A stretch of 44,265 nt of DNA from the NCBI GenBank assembly GCA_030595715.1, contig JAUVCN010000011.1, forward strand, positions 1 to 44,265. Reading direction: 5' to 3'. The position numbers and the translations under genes are program-made. This DNA is from Thermoplasmatales archaeon (GTDB lineage: Archaea > Thermoplasmatota > Penumbrarchaeia > Penumbrarchaeales > Penumbrarchaeaceae). Shown piece after piece: positions 7,857 through 34,628 of the stretch. Each line of letters begins with the position of its first letter. Within the stretch, counting starts at the first letter, position 1. The notes under the pieces are model-generated. The model was not told the DNA's origin and made no database searches. It saw nothing but the letters and a program-made list of their open reading frames with translations.

Positions 7857-9323
7857 ATGTGGAACCTGGTGAAACTCTTCCTTGTGGAAGAGATCAGATT
7901 GAGACGTTCATTCTCATCTTCACTTTCAATGATCATCTTTCCAGAAGTGACACTGATGGGGGCCTTGGCAGGGTATATATTCCTCCCTCAGCTGGTGGGA
8001 TCGTTCACCTATGATCAGATCCATATGGCGATACTTGGTTCCCTGTTCATGTTCGGTGTTTCCATGGGGGGAATCGCATTTCTCGGGAAGGATTTCATCG
8101 AAAGATCATTGGGTCCGGTCACAATGATCGCCGCATCGATATCATACCACCCGGTGGATGAAAAAAAGATGTATCTTTCCTATTTCCTTCATGATCTTGT
8201 ATTCTATCTTTTCCTTATCCTTCTCCCGATGACGGGGGGGCTTCTACTTGGAACTATTATCAGACCGATGCCAGTTGATAGGTTCCTGATCATAACTGCA
8301 GCCCAGTGGTCTACATTCCTGATGGGATTATCTCTCAGTATGCTGGTATCATCTCTGATCAATAATCCAAAGAGGCGGTTGCTCCTCCTTGTACCGATCT
8401 CTATCCTTCCACTTGTGGCGATCCAGGTCCTGACATCCGATGTTCAGGGTTTCATTCCAGGAATGCTTGCTGTCACGTCTGATTCCTGGCCCTGGGCCAT
8501 CTTGACGGTCCTGTTGACGATGATCTATGTGACCTTGGGCGTACTTGCGTTCGACGGATCGGAGATAGGATACAAGAGAGGGGTGCCGGGATCATACAAG
8601 AAGATGCTTTCCTTTGCGAGGATCATCTATCCAAGGGACACCATCTCGAGATCGCTCTTTGCAAGGGAAATGATCGGATTGATAAGGGGCAGAGCCTATG
8701 TTCGGATAGGTTTTTCCCTGTTTTTCCCACTTCTTGTGATGACAGGGATGGTTGGGTTGATCTCCGGTATGGAAGGGATCCCGGTTACCTTCAATCTAAC
8801 ATTCTTCGCCGTGATGGTATCCTTCTTTGCAATGTCGACCTATGCTCATCTGTCGAATATAGATTTCCTGGAGTTCGATCAGACCATACCGATCGATACT
8901 CCCAAACTCATCAAGGTTAAGGTCAGGGTCTATCTTCTGTTGTCACTTCCCATGGCCATAGCATTCCTTGTTATCATGTCCATCATCATGGGGGACATGG
9001 AAGGTTTGCTCTACGGGTTGCCGCTTGTGCTGGTAGCGGTTCCATACATGGGTTATGTGACCGCATACCTCACAGGGTTGTGGACGAACTCTCTGCTGTT
9101 CGATCCATCCGTATTCTTGAAATATATTATCTTCACGGTATTGCCACTGATGTTCTCAACGATCCTGTCCCTGATGATGGTGGAGATGTTCTTAGAATCC
9201 ATCATCGGGATAGCAGTCATACTGGCAATGGGCATCGCTGCAATAAAGATCATCTCCGGTTCAATTGACAGGAGATGGAAAAATATGGTCCTATCTTCAA
9301 CGGGGATCGGTTTCAGGGATTGA
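7857..9323 (+). CDS. Multi-pass membrane protein, ABC-2-permease-like, without an adjacent ATPase
   Basis: 488 residues with about 11-12 hydrophobic segments from residue 20 to 470. The N-terminus (LVKLFLVEEIRLRRSFSSS) is an amphipathic basic stretch of the kind that begins ABC-2-type permeases. A second such element at about residue 265 (SLFAREMIGLIRGRAYVRIG) suggests an internally duplicated two-half arrangement. No ATPase gene lies nearby, so any partner would be encoded elsewhere. There is no ribosome binding site before the ATG; AT-rich TATA-like sequence (GGTTAAGTGTTAAATT) ends about 16 bases upstream, so the messenger is probably leaderless. Assignment to ABC transport is by general pattern only. 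Confidence 0.65.
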   Translation: MWNLVKLFLVEEIRLRRSFSSSLSMIIFPEVTLMGALAGYIFLPQLVGSFTYDQIHMAILGSLFMFGVSMGGIAFLGKDFIERSLGPVTMIAASISYHPVDEKKMYLSYFLHDLVFYLFLILLPMTGGLLLGTIIRPMPVDRFLIITAAQWSTFLMGLSLSMLVSSLINNPKRRLLLLVPISILPLVAIQVLTSDVQGFIPGMLAVTSDSWPWAILTVLLTMIYVTLGVLAFDGSEIGYKRGVPGSYKKMLSFARIIYPRDTISRSLFAREMIGLIRGRAYVRIGFSLFFPLLVMTGMVGLISGMEGIPVTFNLTFFAVMVSFFAMSTYAHLSNIDFLEFDQTIPIDTPKLIKVKVRVYLLLSLPMAIAFLVIMSIIMGDMEGLLYGLPLVLVAVPYMGYVTAYLTGLWTNSLLFDPSVFLKYIIFTVLPLMFSTILSLMMVEMFLESIIGIAVILAMGIAAIKIISGSIDRRWKNMVLSSTGIGFRD

Positions 9324-9778: not shown

Positions 9779-12700
9779 TTACCGTTTGGCCTTGGCAGGA
9801 TACAGTTCATCAATGACATCATCCAGATCCGATTCAAGATCTTTATAGGCGGGAGATACATCTTCGACCTTCTCATGCCCTTTCAGGTCCACAAGCTCCT
9901 TTCTGGCCAGATCTCCTTCGAGTTCCGTTGGAGCAGGTGGCACGGGAATGCTAACCTGCTTATGTTTTGGCGACGATGATCTTTGTCTTCTTCCTCCCCG
10001 TGGTATGGTGAGCATTGCCTCATCGCCCACTTTATCAAGTATCTCCTTCTGCTTGCTCTCCCGGGTTCGGAGAAAGATCCCGTATGATGCAAGGATAAGG
10101 ATGATCAAACCTACAAGGAAGATGAATGTCAGGAATATCGGTTCCCTGTCCTTCTCATTTATCTTCACTATCATCCTGAATGTCACGTTGCCTCCGGTAT
10201 CATTGTCATCGACCCATATATCTATGTTATACGACCCTTTTTCAATACCGTCAGTGTAATTGAGGTAGAGAACACCATCTGCGAAATAGTACGATGAGAC
10301 AATAACACCCTGGGCGCCTACCTTGATATTCTTACTGCCGTCGGGGTCGAAAATGTCCAATGGGACCTTGATCTCCCTTCCTTCTTCCACCTCGATGATA
10401 TCCGGATAAACTACCTCGGGAGGATCGTTCCTGGTGGTTATTATCATTGGGATCAATCTATCTGTACTCTCATCCATACCATCAAACGCGACTATCAACA
10501 AGGAAGATGAGCCAACATGCTCATTACCCGGTGTGAAGGAGATATTGTATACCAACCCGGATCCGTTCATCGAACGTTCATATGTAAAGTCCTCGACACC
10601 AGGAAGATCGAACATGATCTCGGTCGAATCCACATCAGAGAGTACCACCTGAAATTGCTCTGTTTCTCCCTCGAAACCGGTGATCATTTCCGGAAATTCC
10701 CGGAACACCGGTGGATCCGGGACAGATTGGACGATAATGGCCAGATCCTTGGTGGCAGTGACCGACCCATCCGATGCATGGACCCGGATAGTACCGTTCC
10801 CGTTGAAATCATGGCCTGGAATGATATCGATAAGACCCGGTTTCACTTCTTCGACCGTGAGGTCGCCCAATATCGTTTCCATTGAAAAGGAAATTGGTGA
10901 CGGATAATTGTCAGGATCGATAACGAAGGTGCTGATGTTGAACAGTCCGATACTGGCCGAAAGCCTGGTATCTTCCAAGGTCGCCAGATTGGGTAAGCTC
11001 CCAAAGAAGAGAGGATCGTTGACAAGGACCCCTATCGATATCATGTTATCATCGGTCTCACTTTCAACTGAATCGGAAAGGAGGATGACACGCCCCGAGA
11101 TGGTATTCAATCCGGCAGTTTCTGCGGGGAATGAAAGGTTCACAGTGATAGTCTCATCCGGTTCAATATATGTGATAAGCCTTTCCTGTGAATAGGGGCT
11201 TATCTGGGCCGGGCTTTTCAATTCTATACTCAACAGAACGTTATCAAGGGGGACCTCTCCTCCGTTCAATACCTGGGCACTGACAACAAAAGGCTTTCCT
11301 TTGACCGGTATCTCCGGCACAAGGACAAGACCTCCCACCATCTTCAGGTTCTTCAAAGAAACCACCTCGATTTCCTTGATGTGGGGTCGGTAACCTTCCA
11401 TTGTGACGGTCAATTGGAGGGGGGAGAGACCATCGGGCCTGTGATATATCACAACCTCTCCATCCTCATTGGTGGTGCTTATGAAATACACATCCTCATC
11501 TGTTGGATCCATCAAGGTGATCACTGCACCTTGTACCGGACTTCCCGTGAGCGGGTCCTCGACCTTGAATCTGATGGACGTATTGTCCTGATCGTATTGA
11601 TAGGGATGATCCACAGACAGTTCACGGGGTGTATCAAGCCAGATCGGACCTTCTGGATCGCCCAGAAGGTTGTAGGCAAGATTATCGATATAGAACATCC
11701 TGAAAAGCTCCGTCTCGAACTGCAGGGACGGATGTGAAAAAATGTAATTGATATAGTTCTCCTTCTGTTTGTAGAGGGCTTCACCCGGCCGTGGTGACTC
11801 GCCATAGAGGATCCTGTAGAACTCCTTTGCCAGCCACCAATTGCCATATGAGTTCTCATCTCCGAACTCACCCCTGTAGGTCGTGACACTGGCGCCGATG
11901 ATCCCGATAGCTCCCCCGTTGGGGTTCCTCAACACTCTCTCCATGTTCGTGTCATCCTCCTCGGTGAAGTTCAAGGAGTCGCAATTCGAGATGTACAGAA
12001 GAGGGGTCCTCCTGCCGTTTGCGATGGTCTCTGCTGTGCTGTAATCAAAATGTGTCTCGTAGTCGGCCCAGTAGGGGTAATTCCCCCCTCCCTCACCTTT
12101 GTAATTTGTGCAATTCCCGTTAACATCGCCGTGGCATGCAATAAGTACTGTAGAGAAACCCATTTCGTAATGGTCTTCAAAGGATGTGTGGTTCAGATCG
12201 TCGAACATCCTGTTGTACCCTCCCCACTCAAGGCGGGGATAATCAAGAAGGTGGAATGGTTCCACATATGAGGGCAGCTGGTTCTCCACCTCGATGACCA
12301 ATTCATAGGCATTATCCTTGTAAGGATCGAACATGCCCTGGTTGTTGGGGGCATCCATCAAAGAACCTGCAAGAAGCATCGATCTGGACCATGATCCTGG
12401 GGCCGGGTCCTTCTCGTACCTGACCTGCCTATCCACCATTATCTTGAGCTCATTCTTGTCGGAAGCTGGAAATCTGCCTAGGTTCACATTGGCATACCAG
12501 GCTTGTTCACCTTCCTCACCGAATATCTGATTGCCATTGGTATCCCATGACCCCTCAAGACCTGCATAATAATAGTCGGTCAGGACGTAATTGTCATTAT
12601 CATCAGCACCGTTCTCGGCCGTTCCGTTCACGAAGGTCCTTCTCGAAGGGATAATCTCTCCATCGCCCACAAGGAGGACCCATTCGACATACGGGTTCGT

Positions 12701-13087
12701 ATCCTTCAGGGCCTTGATATAGAAACGGACCTTCTCCTGAATATCCCTGCCCTGTGAGTTCTCAAGGACCCCTTCACTTCCTTCAAGTTCGAAGTAATGG
12801 GCCTTGACCCCTTTTTGTGTTTTCCATTCGATGAGGGGAGCTATGGTATCCGAGTAATTTTCCGGCCCTATGGCCACATATTTCAGATCCTTAATATAGG
12901 GCACTTCAAGGATATCCCTCGTTACATCTTCATCTATCTGCCCGATGATATCATTTGTCGATGTTCCTTCGACCTGATATGAAAAGAACAATGGAAATAT
13001 ATTGGGTAAAGTTAGTACTATGATGATCGCTGCAAAGATCAAATATGGCGCAATTGAAGCCATAGCCGGATACCGTTCCTTACCCAT
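9779..13087 (-). CDS. Membrane-anchored C25 (gingipain-like) cysteine peptidase with cadherin/Ig-like domains
   Basis: 1102 residues from the ATG at 13087; a GTG two codons upstream is possible. A membrane segment lies at about residues 10-38. The C25 peptidase region (about 65-470) includes VEWVLLVGDGEIIPSR, the DYYYAGL segment and NLGRFPA. The catalytic pair is visible as His319 in LIACHGD and Cys369 in ISNCDS. After the catalytic domain come a carboxypeptidase-regulatory-like beta domain (VQGAVITLMDP), a CARDB-like domain (PVKGKPFVVSAQVLNGG) and two or three cadherin-like repeats (VPDPPVFREFP, RNDPPEVVYP). A second membrane segment follows at about 980-1003, then a charged cytosolic tail of about 95 residues. 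It probably works outside the cell in envelope-protein processing or proteolysis; the natural substrate is unknown. Confidence 0.87.
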   Translation of the reverse strand: MGKERYPAMASIAPYLIFAAIIIVLTLPNIFPLFFSYQVEGTSTNDIIGQIDEDVTRDILEVPYIKDLKYVAIGPENYSDTIAPLIEWKTQKGVKAHYFELEGSEGVLENSQGRDIQEKVRFYIKALKDTNPYVEWVLLVGDGEIIPSRRTFVNGTAENGADDNDNYVLTDYYYAGLEGSWDTNGNQIFGEEGEQAWYANVNLGRFPASDKNELKIMVDRQVRYEKDPAPGSWSRSMLLAGSLMDAPNNQGMFDPYKDNAYELVIEVENQLPSYVEPFHLLDYPRLEWGGYNRMFDDLNHTSFEDHYEMGFSTVLIACHGDVNGNCTNYKGEGGGNYPYWADYETHFDYSTAETIANGRRTPLLYISNCDSLNFTEEDDTNMERVLRNPNGGAIGIIGASVTTYRGEFGDENSYGNWWLAKEFYRILYGESPRPGEALYKQKENYINYIFSHPSLQFETELFRMFYIDNLAYNLLGDPEGPIWLDTPRELSVDHPYQYDQDNTSIRFKVEDPLTGSPVQGAVITLMDPTDEDVYFISTTNEDGEVVIYHRPDGLSPLQLTVTMEGYRPHIKEIEVVSLKNLKMVGGLVLVPEIPVKGKPFVVSAQVLNGGEVPLDNVLLSIELKSPAQISPYSQERLITYIEPDETITVNLSFPAETAGLNTISGRVILLSDSVESETDDNMISIGVLVNDPLFFGSLPNLATLEDTRLSASIGLFNISTFVIDPDNYPSPISFSMETILGDLTVEEVKPGLIDIIPGHDFNGNGTIRVHASDGSVTATKDLAIIVQSVPDPPVFREFPEMITGFEGETEQFQVVLSDVDSTEIMFDLPGVEDFTYERSMNGSGLVYNISFTPGNEHVGSSSLLIVAFDGMDESTDRLIPMIITTRNDPPEVVYPDIIEVEEGREIKVPLDIFDPDGSKNIKVGAQGVIVSSYYFADGVLYLNYTDGIEKGSYNIDIWVDDNDTGGNVTFRMIVKINEKDREPIFLTFIFLVGLIILILASYGIFLRTRESKQKEILDKVGDEAMLTIPRGGRRQRSSSPKHKQVSIPVPPAPTELEGDLARKELVDLKGHEKVEDVSPAYKDLESDLDDVIDELYPAKAKR

Positions 13088-13116
13088 GATCACTGAATGT
13101 TCAGGAACTTCAAATT

Positions 13117-23489: not shown

Positions 23490-24938
23490 ATGGCCCTTGA
23501 ACAATATTCGAATGCGCTGGAACTAAAAAATTCAGGATACGAACCTTTGACTGCCAAGGAGCTTCTTGCCAGGGAGATCATATCAAAAATGGCAGAGATC
23601 ATGAAGAAGGGATATTCCAAGGAAGAATCGATGTCGCTTCTATTCCCAGGAACTGTGATGGACAGGGATGTCCTGGACAGCCTTCTGGCCGCGCTTGTGG
23701 GTGGATCCCATATTCTCCTTTTCGGACCGTCCGGAACCGGAAAGACATCACTTGCAAAGGAGCTGTGGAACCTATTCCCGAAAGAGGTGTATGTGGTAGA
23801 TGGGTGCCCGGTCCAGGATGATCCCATGTCGGTCATCGATCCGGAATTCTCATCGATCATCAGATGCTGTCCATCGTGTGAGTCAAGGTTCGGCATCGAG
23901 GAGACGGACTTTGACCCCTCAATGGTGGACGCATCGAAGGTCCCGGTCAAGATCGTCAATCTCAAGGAAGGATTTGGTCTTTCCAGGGTCCAGGGTTCTT
24001 CAGAGGTGTTCCCTGACAATCTAACGGGTGTTTTCAACCTCCATAAACTTGAAGAGATCGGAGATCCTACCAGTCCTCTGGTCTTAGAACCGGGGAAGCT
24101 CCTTCAGGCGAATAGAGGCCTATTCATGGTCGATGAGGTCGGGAAGCTTCCACTGGGAACCCAGAACGTTCTTCTTCAAGCTCTTCAGGAAAGTATCGTG
24201 ACACCGGCGAAGTCCAGGGAGACCTTCCCCGCATCATTTGTTGCGATCACAACATCGAACCTGAGGGATCTGGATGCCATAAATGAACCTTTGAACGACA
24301 GGCTCTCCAACCTGTATGTGGACTATATCAAGGATCACATGAAGAACAGGTCCATCGTCGATGTGGCCCTCAGAGGGTCCACCGGTCCTCTTTTCTTCCC
24401 GGAGATCTACATCCATGCTGCTGTATTCATCGTTGAGGCATGGAGGGACCTTTCAGTGGATATCCCTGAACTTTCCGAGGTCGGGTCCAACAGAACGATC
24501 CTCGACACCATCACAAGGTCGGTCGCGTTCTCTACACTGGAGAGTGAGCCCTATGTATCCTATACCAGTTTTGAAAAAGGGGTCAAGGACGCACTCTTTG
24601 GAAGGATAAGGGCAAGAGGGGGTGATTCGTTCCTCAGGAATGAAGAGGTTTTGAAGGAATTCCTCGAGGGCAACATGTCATTGGCCCTTGAGAGGGCGTT
24701 CAGAGTATACTGGTGCACATTCTTCCAGAAGGATCTCGGTTCTTCTGTTTCAAGGGCGGAGAAGCTTGCCAGGGGACTATCTTCCGGGTCGATCCCGAAG
24801 GGAGGTGACGGCGACCTTCTCAGGGAGTTCATATTGAAAACGGAAAGGAACAAAGGACATCTCAAGGAAGAAGAGATCCTCTCCCGTATCGCACAGATAC
24901 TGAACTCCATGGATGATTTTGGATGCAAGGAACTGTAG
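23490..24938 (+). CDS. MoxR/ChlI-type AAA+ ATPase
   Basis: 482 residues. Walker A is GPSGTGKT (79-86), Walker B LFMVDE (211-216), and a sensor-1 Asn lies in ITTSN. The NEPLNDRLSNLYVDYI stretch matches the arginine-finger region of the MoxR/magnesium-chelatase-I clade. An insertion between Walker A and B (about 100-200) carries Cys106 and the cluster Cys126, Cys127, Cys130 (CCPSC), which could hold a metal; MoxR proteins usually lack this. The C-terminal lid is longer than usual (about 200 residues). MoxR ATPases act with VWA-domain partners in protein or metal-centre maturation, and a VWA gene follows 19 bases on. AGGAGGGAG precedes the ATG. Confidence 0.9.
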   Translation: MALEQYSNALELKNSGYEPLTAKELLAREIISKMAEIMKKGYSKEESMSLLFPGTVMDRDVLDSLLAALVGGSHILLFGPSGTGKTSLAKELWNLFPKEVYVVDGCPVQDDPMSVIDPEFSSIIRCCPSCESRFGIEETDFDPSMVDASKVPVKIVNLKEGFGLSRVQGSSEVFPDNLTGVFNLHKLEEIGDPTSPLVLEPGKLLQANRGLFMVDEVGKLPLGTQNVLLQALQESIVTPAKSRETFPASFVAITTSNLRDLDAINEPLNDRLSNLYVDYIKDHMKNRSIVDVALRGSTGPLFFPEIYIHAAVFIVEAWRDLSVDIPELSEVGSNRTILDTITRSVAFSTLESEPYVSYTSFEKGVKDALFGRIRARGGDSFLRNEEVLKEFLEGNMSLALERAFRVYWCTFFQKDLGSSVSRAEKLARGLSSGSIPKGGDGDLLREFILKTERNKGHLKEEEILSRIAQILNSMDDFGCKEL

Positions 24939-24957
24939 ATGAGGGTGTTGTCAATTG

Positions 24958-26886
24958 ATGAACGAGCGACCCATTCCGTACCCGCATATCAAAGGAGCAG
25001 GAGTGATCCTCCCTGATTGCTCCGAGGGAGTCTACACTCCGTTCAGATTGACCAATTGTGAAAAGAGGGAACTTGTCAGAAAGATCGCAGAGAACGGTCT
25101 CAAAGGGATCGATGAGTTCCTTGAGTCCGACAGAAAAGAGGGAGCGGTCTCGGAGAAGTTGGATGAGCTCAGAAAACAGATGAAAGAACAGCTTGAGAAG
25201 ATCAAGGCGAAGAGGAGAAGGTCATTGGACGATCAGATAAGGAACCTGATGAACAAGGGCGGGATAGCAACCAGGGAATCCTCCGATGGTCTGTTGAGGG
25301 AGAGCGGGTTCAGAAGGTTCTCCTCCGAGGAGATCCGGGGAGAGATACTTGCATCCGAACTTATCGGTGCATTGGAAGGCAGGGTACAGATACCGGATTA
25401 TATCGAAAAGATAGGGCTGATCAGAAGGATCTGGAGGGCGATCAAGAGGTTCTTCGTTAGGATCATGTCTGGTATCCTGAGGCTCATCAGATGCATCAAG
25501 AACAGGTTCAAGAAGGATGCCGATAGAGATGAAAATATCAGGTCCAGGAGGAAAAAGAAAGGGGCATTGATCTTGCCATTTCCCTCGCTTCAAAAGGACC
25601 TTTCCGATTGGGAGAAGAGGATGGACAGGCAACTGGACGATGATGATAATCTTCAAAAGGCCGTTGATCAGAGGATATCGGATAAATTCGGATTCACATC
25701 AGGATGGATACAACTCAAGAGGTCATCCGACCCTGAGTGGTACAAAGAGGAAGCACGGAAGATCCTCCATGAAGAGGTGAAAGATGCCGTCAAGGAAAAG
25801 GAATCTGACCTCGAAAAGAAGAGAGTGGACCTTCGATCCGATGAGAGGCAAAGGATCGAGGACGAGAGATCAAGAAGACAGGAGATCATGCGATTGGAAA
25901 AGGCCTTCGAAAAGGAAGCGGCAGATGAGGAAAGATCACTGAAGGAGAGGACCAAGGAAGAAATGAAGAAAGAGCTCGTATCCACTCTTGCGAACATGGG
26001 ATATCTGAAAAGGGTCTTGTTCAAGGACGATATTGATGATGAGACCCGGGAATGGGAGATAACGGAAGCCCTTGTGGAGAAGTTCTCCGAACTGATATAT
26101 GCAGAAGTGATGGAAGGAAGAAGAGGGATCAAGGACCGAAGGGGACGGCAGGCATCAGATGCCGGGGTCTATGAAAAGGCCAGGCTGAGGACCATCAATG
26201 AGGAATCCAGGATGGATATACTTCAGACCATTGTAAATGCCAGGTTGAACCACCCGGATGATCGCCATATCGATCACCATGACATGACAGTATATCGGGA
26301 GGTCACAACGTCGGAGATGCACGGCGTGATCATAATGGACATCTCAGGTTCAATGGAAGAGAACATGAGAATAGAAGCTGCAAAGAGGTCGGTTCTCGCT
26401 CTCACACAGGCGATCAAGAGGGACAATCCACGCAACAGGGTGGACCTCATCTCTCTTTCTACCCGGGCGGTGCCGCTTTCCTTGAGAGATGTGATGACGA
26501 TCGAACCCAGAGGATTCACCAATCATCAGGAAGCGATCGGCCTGGCAAGGGCGATATTCGATAGGAGCAGGGCTGATAAATTCTTGCTTTTCCTGATCAC
26601 CGACGGCCTGCCTGAAGCATATACCAACGAAAAAGGTGAAGCTGTTGCCGGCGATCTCGATAGGTCCATGGAACTTGCGTTGAAAGAAGCATCAGGGTTG
26701 ATCAGGTATCCGGATCTTGTGTTCAACATCTTCCTTCTGGAACCTGAAGATGAGACATTCGTCAGTTCCGCAAGGAAGATAGCAAAGGAAGGGAGTGGGA
26801 GGGTCATCGTTGCCGACCCCAAACAATTGGCCAGCAGGGTCCTTGGGACATATGATGACGGGACCTCCATCCTTGGTGGAGTATAG
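24958..26886 (+). CDS. VWA-domain protein, partner of the MoxR-like ATPase
   Basis: 642 residues from the ATG at 24958 (a TTG precedes it; GAGGG 12 bases upstream). The C-terminal about 190 residues are a von Willebrand A domain with a complete MIDAS: DISGS (Asp461, Ser463, Ser465), Thr521 in GFTNH, and Asp549 in ITDGLPE. The first 450 residues are highly charged and helical with long coiled-coil-like runs (EKKRVDLRSDERQRIEDERS). A short hydrophobic/basic segment near 160-185 (RIWRAIKRFFVRIMSGILR) could touch the membrane but is amphipathic. The arrangement is that of BchD/CoxE-type partners. It is co-transcribed with the AAA+ gene. The target is unknown. Confidence 0.9.
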   Translation: MNERPIPYPHIKGAGVILPDCSEGVYTPFRLTNCEKRELVRKIAENGLKGIDEFLESDRKEGAVSEKLDELRKQMKEQLEKIKAKRRRSLDDQIRNLMNKGGIATRESSDGLLRESGFRRFSSEEIRGEILASELIGALEGRVQIPDYIEKIGLIRRIWRAIKRFFVRIMSGILRLIRCIKNRFKKDADRDENIRSRRKKKGALILPFPSLQKDLSDWEKRMDRQLDDDDNLQKAVDQRISDKFGFTSGWIQLKRSSDPEWYKEEARKILHEEVKDAVKEKESDLEKKRVDLRSDERQRIEDERSRRQEIMRLEKAFEKEAADEERSLKERTKEEMKKELVSTLANMGYLKRVLFKDDIDDETREWEITEALVEKFSELIYAEVMEGRRGIKDRRGRQASDAGVYEKARLRTINEESRMDILQTIVNARLNHPDDRHIDHHDMTVYREVTTSEMHGVIIMDISGSMEENMRIEAAKRSVLALTQAIKRDNPRNRVDLISLSTRAVPLSLRDVMTIEPRGFTNHQEAIGLARAIFDRSRADKFLLFLITDGLPEAYTNEKGEAVAGDLDRSMELALKEASGLIRYPDLVFNIFLLEPEDETFVSSARKIAKEGSGRVIVADPKQLASRVLGTYDDGTSILGGV

Positions 26887-33025: not shown

Positions 33026-34543
33026 TCAAAGGTCAATATACTTCTTGTAGGGCCAATCGACCCATCCGATGTAAGCTGACAGCTCATTTAGCCAATCCCT
33101 CGCGTCATATCCGGACAGCTCCCAGAAATCATCTGTCTTGTAACCCTGAATGATATCCCTGGTGGATTCAAGCCATATCGGAATATCCTTTGGAACTGCT
33201 CCAAACAGGAGAGAGACCAGCATTCCGTTCTTGAAGCCTAGATCGATATCTTCAGATGGAGTAGGTATCGGTTGGGGCTTCAGATTGGCCGCATGGCTGA
33301 TAACACCGAGTTTCGATCCCTGTTTTCCCGTGATGAAGTTCATCCTTCCGGAAAGGCCCGGGAACCACATATCAGCGATGAAATCACCGAACTCATCGAA
33401 ATATTCACTCCCCTCGGGATAAATGGGAATACAGTAAACTGAAGTGGCTCTGAACTCGTATAGACCTGCAGAGGACCCGTTGAACGTGAAAAGTCCCAGG
33501 TCCTTTTCATCGCAACTGCCATTTTCTTTTTCAAGCTGGATCTTTCCGTTCTCAAGATCATCCAGGACCATCTTCATGGCATCCGGATCCCAGATCTTTG
33601 GATCTATCCATAAATGAGGGATGACAAATGGCCTTTCAGGTGTCAGGCCTGCCATTATATCCGGAATATCGATCGGTCCCAAAGGCCAATGCTCCTGCAT
33701 CCAGGACCTTTCCTCATCTGTCGCTACATTGTACTTCAGGTAAGGATACAATGCCTGTGAGAGAAGTTCAATGGGGAATGGGTTGAGAACCTCTTCCCGG
33801 ACCTGCTTTCTTCCAAAGTCCTTCATGCACTGCGAGAAATGATGATTTGAAAGAGGGAATATTGCTATCCTTGAATGCTGGAACTCATATGATTGGTCCA
33901 ACTTTCCCACTTCGATGACCGAATTGATCACTTCCCTGCATCTGAACGGGATCTGGGTAAAATCCCTCCTGGAGATCCTCCTTGCTATCTTCAGGAGCTT
34001 CCCCATGGTCGGAGCCACGGTCCTTGGTCCCTGAAGAGAAAGAGCCGATCTCTTTGGAAGGACTGTAAACACCCAGAATATTGTGGACATTGGCAGGCAG
34101 TATCCAAGATGCTGTAACACCTCGGGTGTGAGCCCACCCCCGGTTCCACCATCTGCTGTATGGATTATAACAACAATAGCCGGTTCTGCCTCTGATATGG
34201 GTTTATAGAGGTTGAAAGCCAGATTCTTGACGACCTCATCGTTCAATACGGCCTTGGCAGCTCTACCTGGCCTCCCCCCGGCTCCGCGGGACATCCCTCT
34301 GGCTGATTGTGATAAGGATATCTTCTGTTCCTTTGGTATGTTCTCGAAGAATCCCTTCCTTGTAGGGTCACTGGATGTGTCCACGATGAAGGTGAGGGGT
34401 CTTTCAGAATTTGCCTTCACAGATCTTGCGAGACAATTATATCTGTCAACATTCTGATATTTCAATACCTTTTCCATTCCATCAGACAGGATCCTTGAAC
34501 CTCCTCCACCGATACCAACTATCACAATGGAAGGTATCTTCAT
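33026..34543 (-). CDS. Divergent FtsZ/tubulin-superfamily GTPase-like protein
   Basis: 505 residues from the ATG at 34543 (GGGG five bases upstream; the ATG at 34564 has no such site). Nucleotide-binding loops of the superfamily are recognisable in order: GIGGGGSR (10-17), VDTSSDP (54-60), RGAGGRPGRAA (86-96, like the FtsZ G-x-G-A-G-x-x-P-x-x-G loop), and the signature loop DGGTGGG (131-137; canonical GGGTGTG). A T7-like D-I-P-D (Asp292, Asp295) aligns with FtsZ N-x-D-F-A-D, so acidic catalytic residues may be kept. The C-terminal about 200 residues do not resemble FtsZ, CetZ or tubulin, and no FtsA/ZipA-binding tail is seen. It is probably a GTP-binding, possibly polymerising protein with an unknown job. 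It is encoded just downstream of aspS with its own TATA box. Confidence 0.8.
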   Translation of the reverse strand: MKIPSIVIVGIGGGGSRILSDGMEKVLKYQNVDRYNCLARSVKANSERPLTFIVDTSSDPTRKGFFENIPKEQKISLSQSARGMSRGAGGRPGRAAKAVLNDEVVKNLAFNLYKPISEAEPAIVVIIHTADGGTGGGLTPEVLQHLGYCLPMSTIFWVFTVLPKRSALSLQGPRTVAPTMGKLLKIARRISRRDFTQIPFRCREVINSVIEVGKLDQSYEFQHSRIAIFPLSNHHFSQCMKDFGRKQVREEVLNPFPIELLSQALYPYLKYNVATDEERSWMQEHWPLGPIDIPDIMAGLTPERPFVIPHLWIDPKIWDPDAMKMVLDDLENGKIQLEKENGSCDEKDLGLFTFNGSSAGLYEFRATSVYCIPIYPEGSEYFDEFGDFIADMWFPGLSGRMNFITGKQGSKLGVISHAANLKPQPIPTPSEDIDLGFKNGMLVSLLFGAVPKDIPIWLESTRDIIQGYKTDDFWELSGYDARDWLNELSAYIGWVDWPYKKYIDL

Positions 34544-34615
34544 CTCATCCCCTTCATAATCCAAATCTATCCCTCAGTAATTACGATCCGAAGCCAGGGT
34601 CGATCGGTAGAGAAT

Positions 34616-34628
34616 CTATATTTAAATT
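34616..34628 (-). promoter_or_regulatory. TATA box of the FtsZ/tubulin-like gene
   Basis: The minus strand reads AATTTAAATATAG, just past the aspS stop. It predicts a leader of about 55 bases and start at 34543, so this gene can be expressed apart from aspS. Confidence 0.5.

Follow-up and report, generated by a model that had tools for sequence, protein, structure and literature searches.

A gene on the minus strand of a 44,265-nt stretch of DNA from a Thermoplasmatales archaeon (the window, that is, the whole stretch that was analysed) encodes a strongly conserved protein related to tubulin and FtsZ, the builders of microtubules and of bacterial division rings. To judge from its sequence, the protein probably belongs to an undescribed family and forms a nucleotide-driven filament; its C-terminal half resembles nothing in the databases searched, and members occur in a small number of lineages within a single phylum of archaea. 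We consider it fairly likely that this new family of the FtsZ/tubulin superfamily builds a nucleotide-switched accessory filament and not the division ring. The prokaryotic builders of tubulin-fold filaments known to us are FtsZ, CetZ, TubZ and tubulin, and the debate on the origin of eukaryotic tubulin still draws on very few sequences from archaea. A conserved family outside the known groups, with tubulin as its nearest structural match and a novel C-terminal domain, would provide a test case for the evolution of such filaments. With a narrow range of three families in a single phylum, the weight given to it will depend on biochemistry.

The open reading frame recognized in a preliminary description of this DNA, which had been made from the letters alone, was confirmed (Table 1); the window is contig C110 of a genome (G000) of 3.07 Mb that is 95.6% complete. 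While the frame stands, the ATG codon at position 34543 that had been taken as its start probably does not; a TTG codon at position 34564 is more likely the true start. The N-terminus read from TTG (MDYEGDEMKIPS) agrees in length and acidity with those of the orthologues (MDEEETDEIKHP, MVGEEIEERKHP), a Shine-Dalgarno-like GAGGGAT lies 5' of it, and the orthologue in genome G048 apparently starts with TTG as well; it is the agreement of these three features that leads us to favor the TTG codon. Several orthologue starts are preceded by G-rich stretches, most clearly those of the f1 and f27 orthologues. The protein comprises 512 amino acids when read from TTG and 505 when read from ATG; residues are numbered from the ATG codon throughout. 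The promoter of its own that had been proposed for the gene is supported by an archaeal TATA-box-like sequence: in the 86-nt gap that follows aspS, TTTAAATAT precedes the TTG codon by 53 nt; this putative element occurs once in the whole window (0.24 copies expected). The ratio dN/dS was 0.035–0.16 in the three orthologue pairs that allowed an estimate, which shows that the family is under purifying selection.

Table 1. Positions in the window of the tubulin-like gene, its putative expression signals and the segments of its product (residues numbered from ATG 34543)
Feature	Residues	Position	Strand	Basis
Tubulin-superfamily gene		33026..34564, stop included	minus	Open reading frame, orthologue N-termini, dN/dS
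Shine-Dalgarno-like GAGGGAT		34569..34575	minus	Sequence, 5' of the TTG start
TATA-box-like promoter element TTTAAATAT		34618..34626	minus	Sequence; putative function
T1 loop GIGGGGSR	10-17	34493..34516	minus	MAFFT and hhalign alignment with FtsZ T1
T2 loop FIVDTSSDP	52-60	34364..34390	minus	Invariant except one position (FIVDTSxDP)
T3 loop GMSRGAGGRPGRA	83-95	34259..34297	minus	Aligned with FtsZ T3 'RGLGAGxxP'
T4 glycine loop HTADGGTGGGLTPE	128-141	34121..34162	minus	Paired with GGGTG[TS]G by all alignments
T5 region FTVLP	159-163	34055..34069	minus	Aligned with Asgard tubulin B 'YSILP' and FtsZ T5
T6 loop FPLSNHHF with N233	229-236	33836..33859	minus	hhalign: L042 'MVSNLRL'
Predicted core helix H7	256-285	33689..33778	minus	AlphaFold; partial L042 alignment
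T7 loop GPIDIPDIMAG with D292 and D295	289-299	33647..33679	minus	Family-invariant
C-terminal region	300-505	33029..33646	minus	Conserved HxANLKPQPI, LGFxNGxLVxLxFGA and Trp-rich end

Profile comparisons show the N-terminal half to have the sequence of a tubulin-superfamily GTPase domain, as the preliminary description had proposed. With Pfam family PF00091, the window protein gave E 1.4e-7 (32.4–32.5 bits, with a cut-off of 33; 34.9 bits in the genome search), and 9 of the 11 family members matched altogether (best E 6.3e-8). In a profile–profile comparison with the FtsZ proteins of Thermoplasmatota, the score was 41.9, while 40 column shuffles reached a maximum of 25.2; this alignment spans residues 4–142, and its statistical support is confined to that span. 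Residues 165–505 scored no higher against the FtsZ profile than the shuffles did, and profile comparison detected no similarity to FtsZ past residue 143. Since the support from FtsZ ends near residue 142, the D-x-x-D motif further downstream rests on its position, its conservation and the structural model. A partial bridge is offered by L042, an orphan Thermoplasmatota protein whose profile matched residues 119–277 weakly (score 31.3; shuffle maximum 23.4) and aligned T4, T5, T6 (SNHHF opposite SNLRL) and a portion of H7 in their proper sequence, ending short of T7. By its best PDB matches (Asgard tubulin B, 4b46, a CetZ structure deposited as FtsZ, and gamma-tubulin), L042 is a tubulin-side protein.

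When the new family was compared with PDB sequences, Asgard tubulin B ranked first (E 0.025), followed by TubZ (0.09), gamma-tubulin (1.5) and FtsZ (1.8). Similarity to tubulin over most of the length was not significant; the top match, which lies over T3–T5, covers about 63 residues. As a control, a 352-residue FtsZ-side paralogue from the same genome matched FtsZ at 2.5e-23 and no tubulin. This paralogue (L036:3643-4698, plus strand, contig C122 of genome G000) carries an altered T4 loop, LGKGTASGA, and has relatives in most genomes of the window's family.

Of the 505 residues, 232 (46%) do not vary among eight near-full-length orthologues, and the motifs singled out earlier (GIGGGGSR at residues 10–17, GAGGRPG at 87–93, DGGTGGG at 131–137 and D292-x-x-D295) are all present and invariant or nearly so. 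The invariant T1 stretch reads GGGGSRILS, with Arg17 in the position of an FtsZ Asn; the register of T2 relative to FtsZ varies among alignments; and T3 is invariant in the eight orthologues except for one position (GMSRGAGGxPGRA). T4 differs from the consensus GGGTG[ST]G at two of seven positions and falls in register with it in every alignment, its first Gly being replaced by Asp131, which is invariant in the family. Further downstream, T6 follows the pattern FPxSNxHF (its match to FtsZ is not significant), H7 contains the conserved segment LNPFPxELLSQALYPxLKY, and T7 lies in the stretch WPxGPIDIPDIMAG, where it co-aligns with FtsZ LDFADLKT. The T6 Asn, H7 and the acidic T7 are invariant and consistent with the structural model; their profile support comes weakly from L042, as far as H7, and not from FtsZ. 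Loops T1, T3, T4, T6 and T7 are conserved across three families.

For the last 200 residues, neither Pfam (at useful E-values) nor the PDB sequences (up to E 10) yielded a match, which bears out the earlier impression that they resemble nothing recognizable. No hydrophobic segment scored as high as a typical transmembrane one (maximum 19-residue mean, 1.37). An AlphaFold run on five orthologues gave no usable model (pLDDT 33). A second run was not blind, since its alignment, chosen for motif register, contained 25 further members of the superfamily as padding besides 11 orthologues; this alignment placed T6 and T7 in register and T2 off by several residues, while several other superfamily alignments put T6 or T2 wrongly. 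The resulting model (pLDDT 66.7, pTM 0.79) reaches about 80–92 in most of the Rossmann domain and has low confidence in segments 326–359 and 385–438 and in the T7 loop itself. It predicts helices 256–264, 266–273 and 276–285 in H7, strands 306–312, 368–374 and 441–447 together with three terminal helices in the C-terminal region, and, from the padded alignment, the order S1-H7-T7-H8-S8 that is characteristic of the superfamily. A Foldseek search with this model returned 805 PDB matches at E ≤0.001 (best E 1.8e-7, probability 1.00, TM about 0.5–0.6), and the top 50 were all alpha-, beta- or gamma-tubulin entries. The tubulin-type fold with H7 that had been anticipated was thus predicted, although the blindness of the prediction was given up with the padding: since the alignment contained superfamily members, the fold itself is no independent proof of membership. 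As the padding was mostly of the FtsZ type, it would not itself have imposed a preference for tubulin, and the PDB sequence ranking weakly agrees with this structural preference.

In the superfamily, loops T1–T6 hold the nucleotide, and an acidic residue in T7 of the next subunit triggers its hydrolysis. By analogy, the protein would consist of two domains, the N-terminal one binding a guanine nucleotide via T1–T6; subunits would stack head to tail, with D292 and D295 in T7 of one completing the hydrolysis site of the next, and stacking and hydrolysis together would yield a filament switched by its nucleotide. Family-specific contacts (lateral, partner or membrane) may be provided by the C-terminal region, which is enlarged by an insertion of some 100 residues. 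The retained acidic pair of T7 makes it most likely that the protein is an active GTPase coupled to filament formation. The same genome encodes FtsZ1 and FtsZ2, both with the FtsZ_C domain, so that division presumably does not depend on the protein studied here and the filament would be an accessory cytoskeletal or scaffold structure; Makarova and Koonin applied the same argument from coexistence to FtsZl1 and FtsZl2 (PMC2875224). We infer the identity of the nucleotide, polymerization, hydrolysis through T7 and the accessory role. Counting against this explanation are the replacement of Asn by Arg17 in T1 and of Gly by Asp131 in T4, the padding of the model, and the lack of significant FtsZ similarity in residues 165–505.

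The neighborhood of the gene gives little that is constant. Within the window, aspS lies upstream on the same strand, a converging gene downstream encodes a surface-type protein of 1412 amino acids, and genes for PKD/Ig-repeat proteins lie beyond it. The window further contains a gene for a 1104-residue protein with a gingipain-type Peptidase_C25 domain (9779-13093, minus strand; E 7e-38) and, about 6 kb from the tubulin-like gene and on the opposite strand to it, an AAA gene of the MoxR/Mg-chelatase type with a vWA-domain gene after it (23490-26886, plus strand). The location among envelope genes noted in the preliminary description is therefore correct for the window, but it does not extend to the relatives: in genus g4, a divergent small ORF and an apparent cyclophilin gene lie beside the gene, with an apparent ABC transporter following it in genome G003, and in family f27 the divergent neighbor is apparently ribosomal protein L18e, read by eye. 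An envelope-gene operon was ruled out on the grounds that the neighbors differ between lineages. With no neighbor common to all, and with the surface-protein surroundings confined to the window's own genome, the suggested role in cell shape or envelope assembly is left without support.

In family f48 (L073, L080, L081, L082), the stop codon is followed after 1–4 nt by an apparent mevalonate kinase ORF in all four genomes with a readable 3' side, the kinase being named by eye. So short a gap points to co-translation and suggests, in f48, a translational coupling with isoprenoid synthesis. This arrangement bears on the strongest competing explanation, which we regard as unlikely: that the protein is a member of the superfamily that no longer forms filaments and serves instead as a regulator or scaffold binding a nucleotide, tied, for instance, to the synthesis of isoprenoids as membrane-lipid precursors. 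Such a role would suit not only the f48 gene order but also the altered T1 and T4 residues and the disappearance of FtsZ similarity past residue 143, and FtsZl1 has similarly been suspected of possibly not making filaments (PMC2875224). However, T7, both Asp residues included, ranks with the best-conserved parts of the protein, which is hard to explain unless T7 completes the site of a neighboring subunit, and the mevalonate kinase neighbor is absent in the other lineages, so that the link to lipid synthesis is limited to one family.

Orthologues with 57–77% identity were recovered in three Thermoplasmatota families, all of them known from incomplete genomes. Their distribution is patchy: the gene is present in two of the four genera of the window's family, in one genus of f27 and in two of the three genera of f48. 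Among 390 genomes drawn from the phylum, matches at E 0.1 turned up in 12, of which seven were clear. When short peptide patterns were run against the contigs of all GTDB species, nothing but the two close relatives was detected; this method reaches close relatives only, so that absence from other phyla is not established by it. The window protein is 68% identical to that of f27, and the protein of G003, from the window's family, 73%; for comparison, the aspS product of the window is 45% identical to that of f27 and 43% to that of f48. In the family tree, f27 and genus g4 of the window's family are joined to the exclusion of the window gene, with 98% ultrafast bootstrap support. This conflict with taxonomy points to horizontal movement of the gene between classes.

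Horizontal spread of this kind would be accounted for if the protein formed a filament that serves a mobile element in partition or replication, as TubZ or PhuZ do. The conflicting tree, the patchy distribution and the second rank of TubZ among the PDB sequence matches speak for this idea, which we nevertheless hold to be quite improbable. Searches of viral contigs, plasmids and phages revealed no relatives; the genes read near the tubulin-like gene, both in the window and in the stretches of seven relatives, are of housekeeping or envelope type, with no replication or partition gene recognized there; and the new family is longer than TubZ and PhuZ. Returning to the accessory filament, a more far-reaching version of it, which is itself unlikely, would be a tubulin-side family exchanged between classes and co-translated with mevalonate kinase in f48, forming a cytoskeletal polymer tied to membrane growth and representing an archaeal branch of its own, close to where tubulin arose.

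The new family shares with FtsZ1 and FtsZ2 a significantly alignable T1–T4 region and a D-x-x-D motif in T7. That it might be an ordinary divergent paralogue of FtsZ or CetZ is suggested by the alignment of T1, T3 and T4 with FtsZ and by a weak match to the TIGR00065 equivalog (best E 0.022), but we regard this as very improbable. The TIGR00065 score is 11.8 bits, far below the cut-off of 295.2; FtsZ_C (PF12327), present in both true FtsZ proteins of the same genome, is absent; and the members, 505–527 residues long, have a different C-terminal region. With the full-length protein or the full family profile as query, the PDB matches up to E 10 included neither CetZ nor FtsZ chains. Entries 4b45 and 4b46, which we take to be CetZ, were among those not matched, whereas L042 matched 4b46 at 2e-5. 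The earlier judgement that the protein is neither a normal FtsZ nor a CetZ is thereby upheld, for CetZ within the PDB sequences compared. An unrelated Rossmann protein of the ThiF or SDR type, with glycine loops imitating tubulin, is essentially refuted at the sequence level, given that ThiF or SDR matches were occasional (E 0.03–0.2, single members; ThiF at E 0.19 in one), while PF00091 matched nine members, with E-values five to six orders of magnitude lower, and both glycine loops stand in the right order.

The best structural matches of the predicted model are, as noted, eukaryotic tubulins, and the family's conserved acidic residue at the catalytic T7 position corresponds to E254 of alpha-tubulin and not to K254 of beta-tubulin (PMC13394414). 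The differences from eukaryotic and Asgard tubulins are a T4 loop reading DGGTGGG in place of the tubulin signature, about 70–100 extra residues, and the lack of an alpha/beta gene pair. With FtsZl1 (Tubulin_2, PF13809), the family has in common its divergence, its coexistence with FtsZ and a novel C-terminal region, but it is shorter and lacks the long coiled-coil extension of FtsZl1, as judged without a coiled-coil predictor. Identity with Tubulin_2/FtsZl1 was ruled out by a best E of 0.089 for PF13809, in 3 of 11 members, and by the absence of an FtsZl1-type operon (vWA, kinase, GTPase or OmpA genes) next to the gene, in the window and in the seven relatives' stretches. A further parallel is FtsZl2 of Proteobacteria, described as keeping T1, T4, T6, T7 and H7, with an unmatched C-terminal region of about 300 residues and mixed alpha/beta type, and as lacking conserved neighbors (Makarova and Koonin 2010; PMC2875224). 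The new family resembles it in the kept loop motifs and the predicted H7, in the unmatched C-terminal region and in having no conserved neighbors, and is set apart from it, by description alone, as non-proteobacterial and through the size of that region.

In the accessible text of the literature consulted, the described groups comprise FtsZ1, FtsZ2, CetZ, TubZ, the artubulins, the Asgard and Halo tubulin-like groups, FtsZl1, FtsZl2 and scattered non-canonical archaeal members (PMC2875224, PMC9871819, PMC9856176, PMC3349469, PMC13394414). Within the open-access literature searched, we found no description of the present family, in line with the earlier suggestion that it is undescribed.

Thermoplasmatota contain other orphan tubulin-superfamily proteins of about 390–530 amino acids. 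Apart from the tubulin-side protein L042:3338-4846, these include L041:3628-5043, a member of Tubulin_2, and two proteins encoded within one 6-kb stretch of genome G012 (L046:3327-4505 and 7911-9104); a tubulin-like ORF is also present in genome G053 (L105). Genus g2 (L047-L049), in which the family studied here was not found, encodes a tubulin-superfamily protein of 314–319 amino acids with the altered glycine loop PGGGTGTPGA. Finally, contig C127 of genome G000 carries an FtsZ-like ORF of 325 amino acids (L157:578-1555, plus strand) that has no recognizable T4 glycine loop and has kept a T7-like segment, GVVNLDQADL, together with the C-terminal half; similar matches occur in other f1 genomes.
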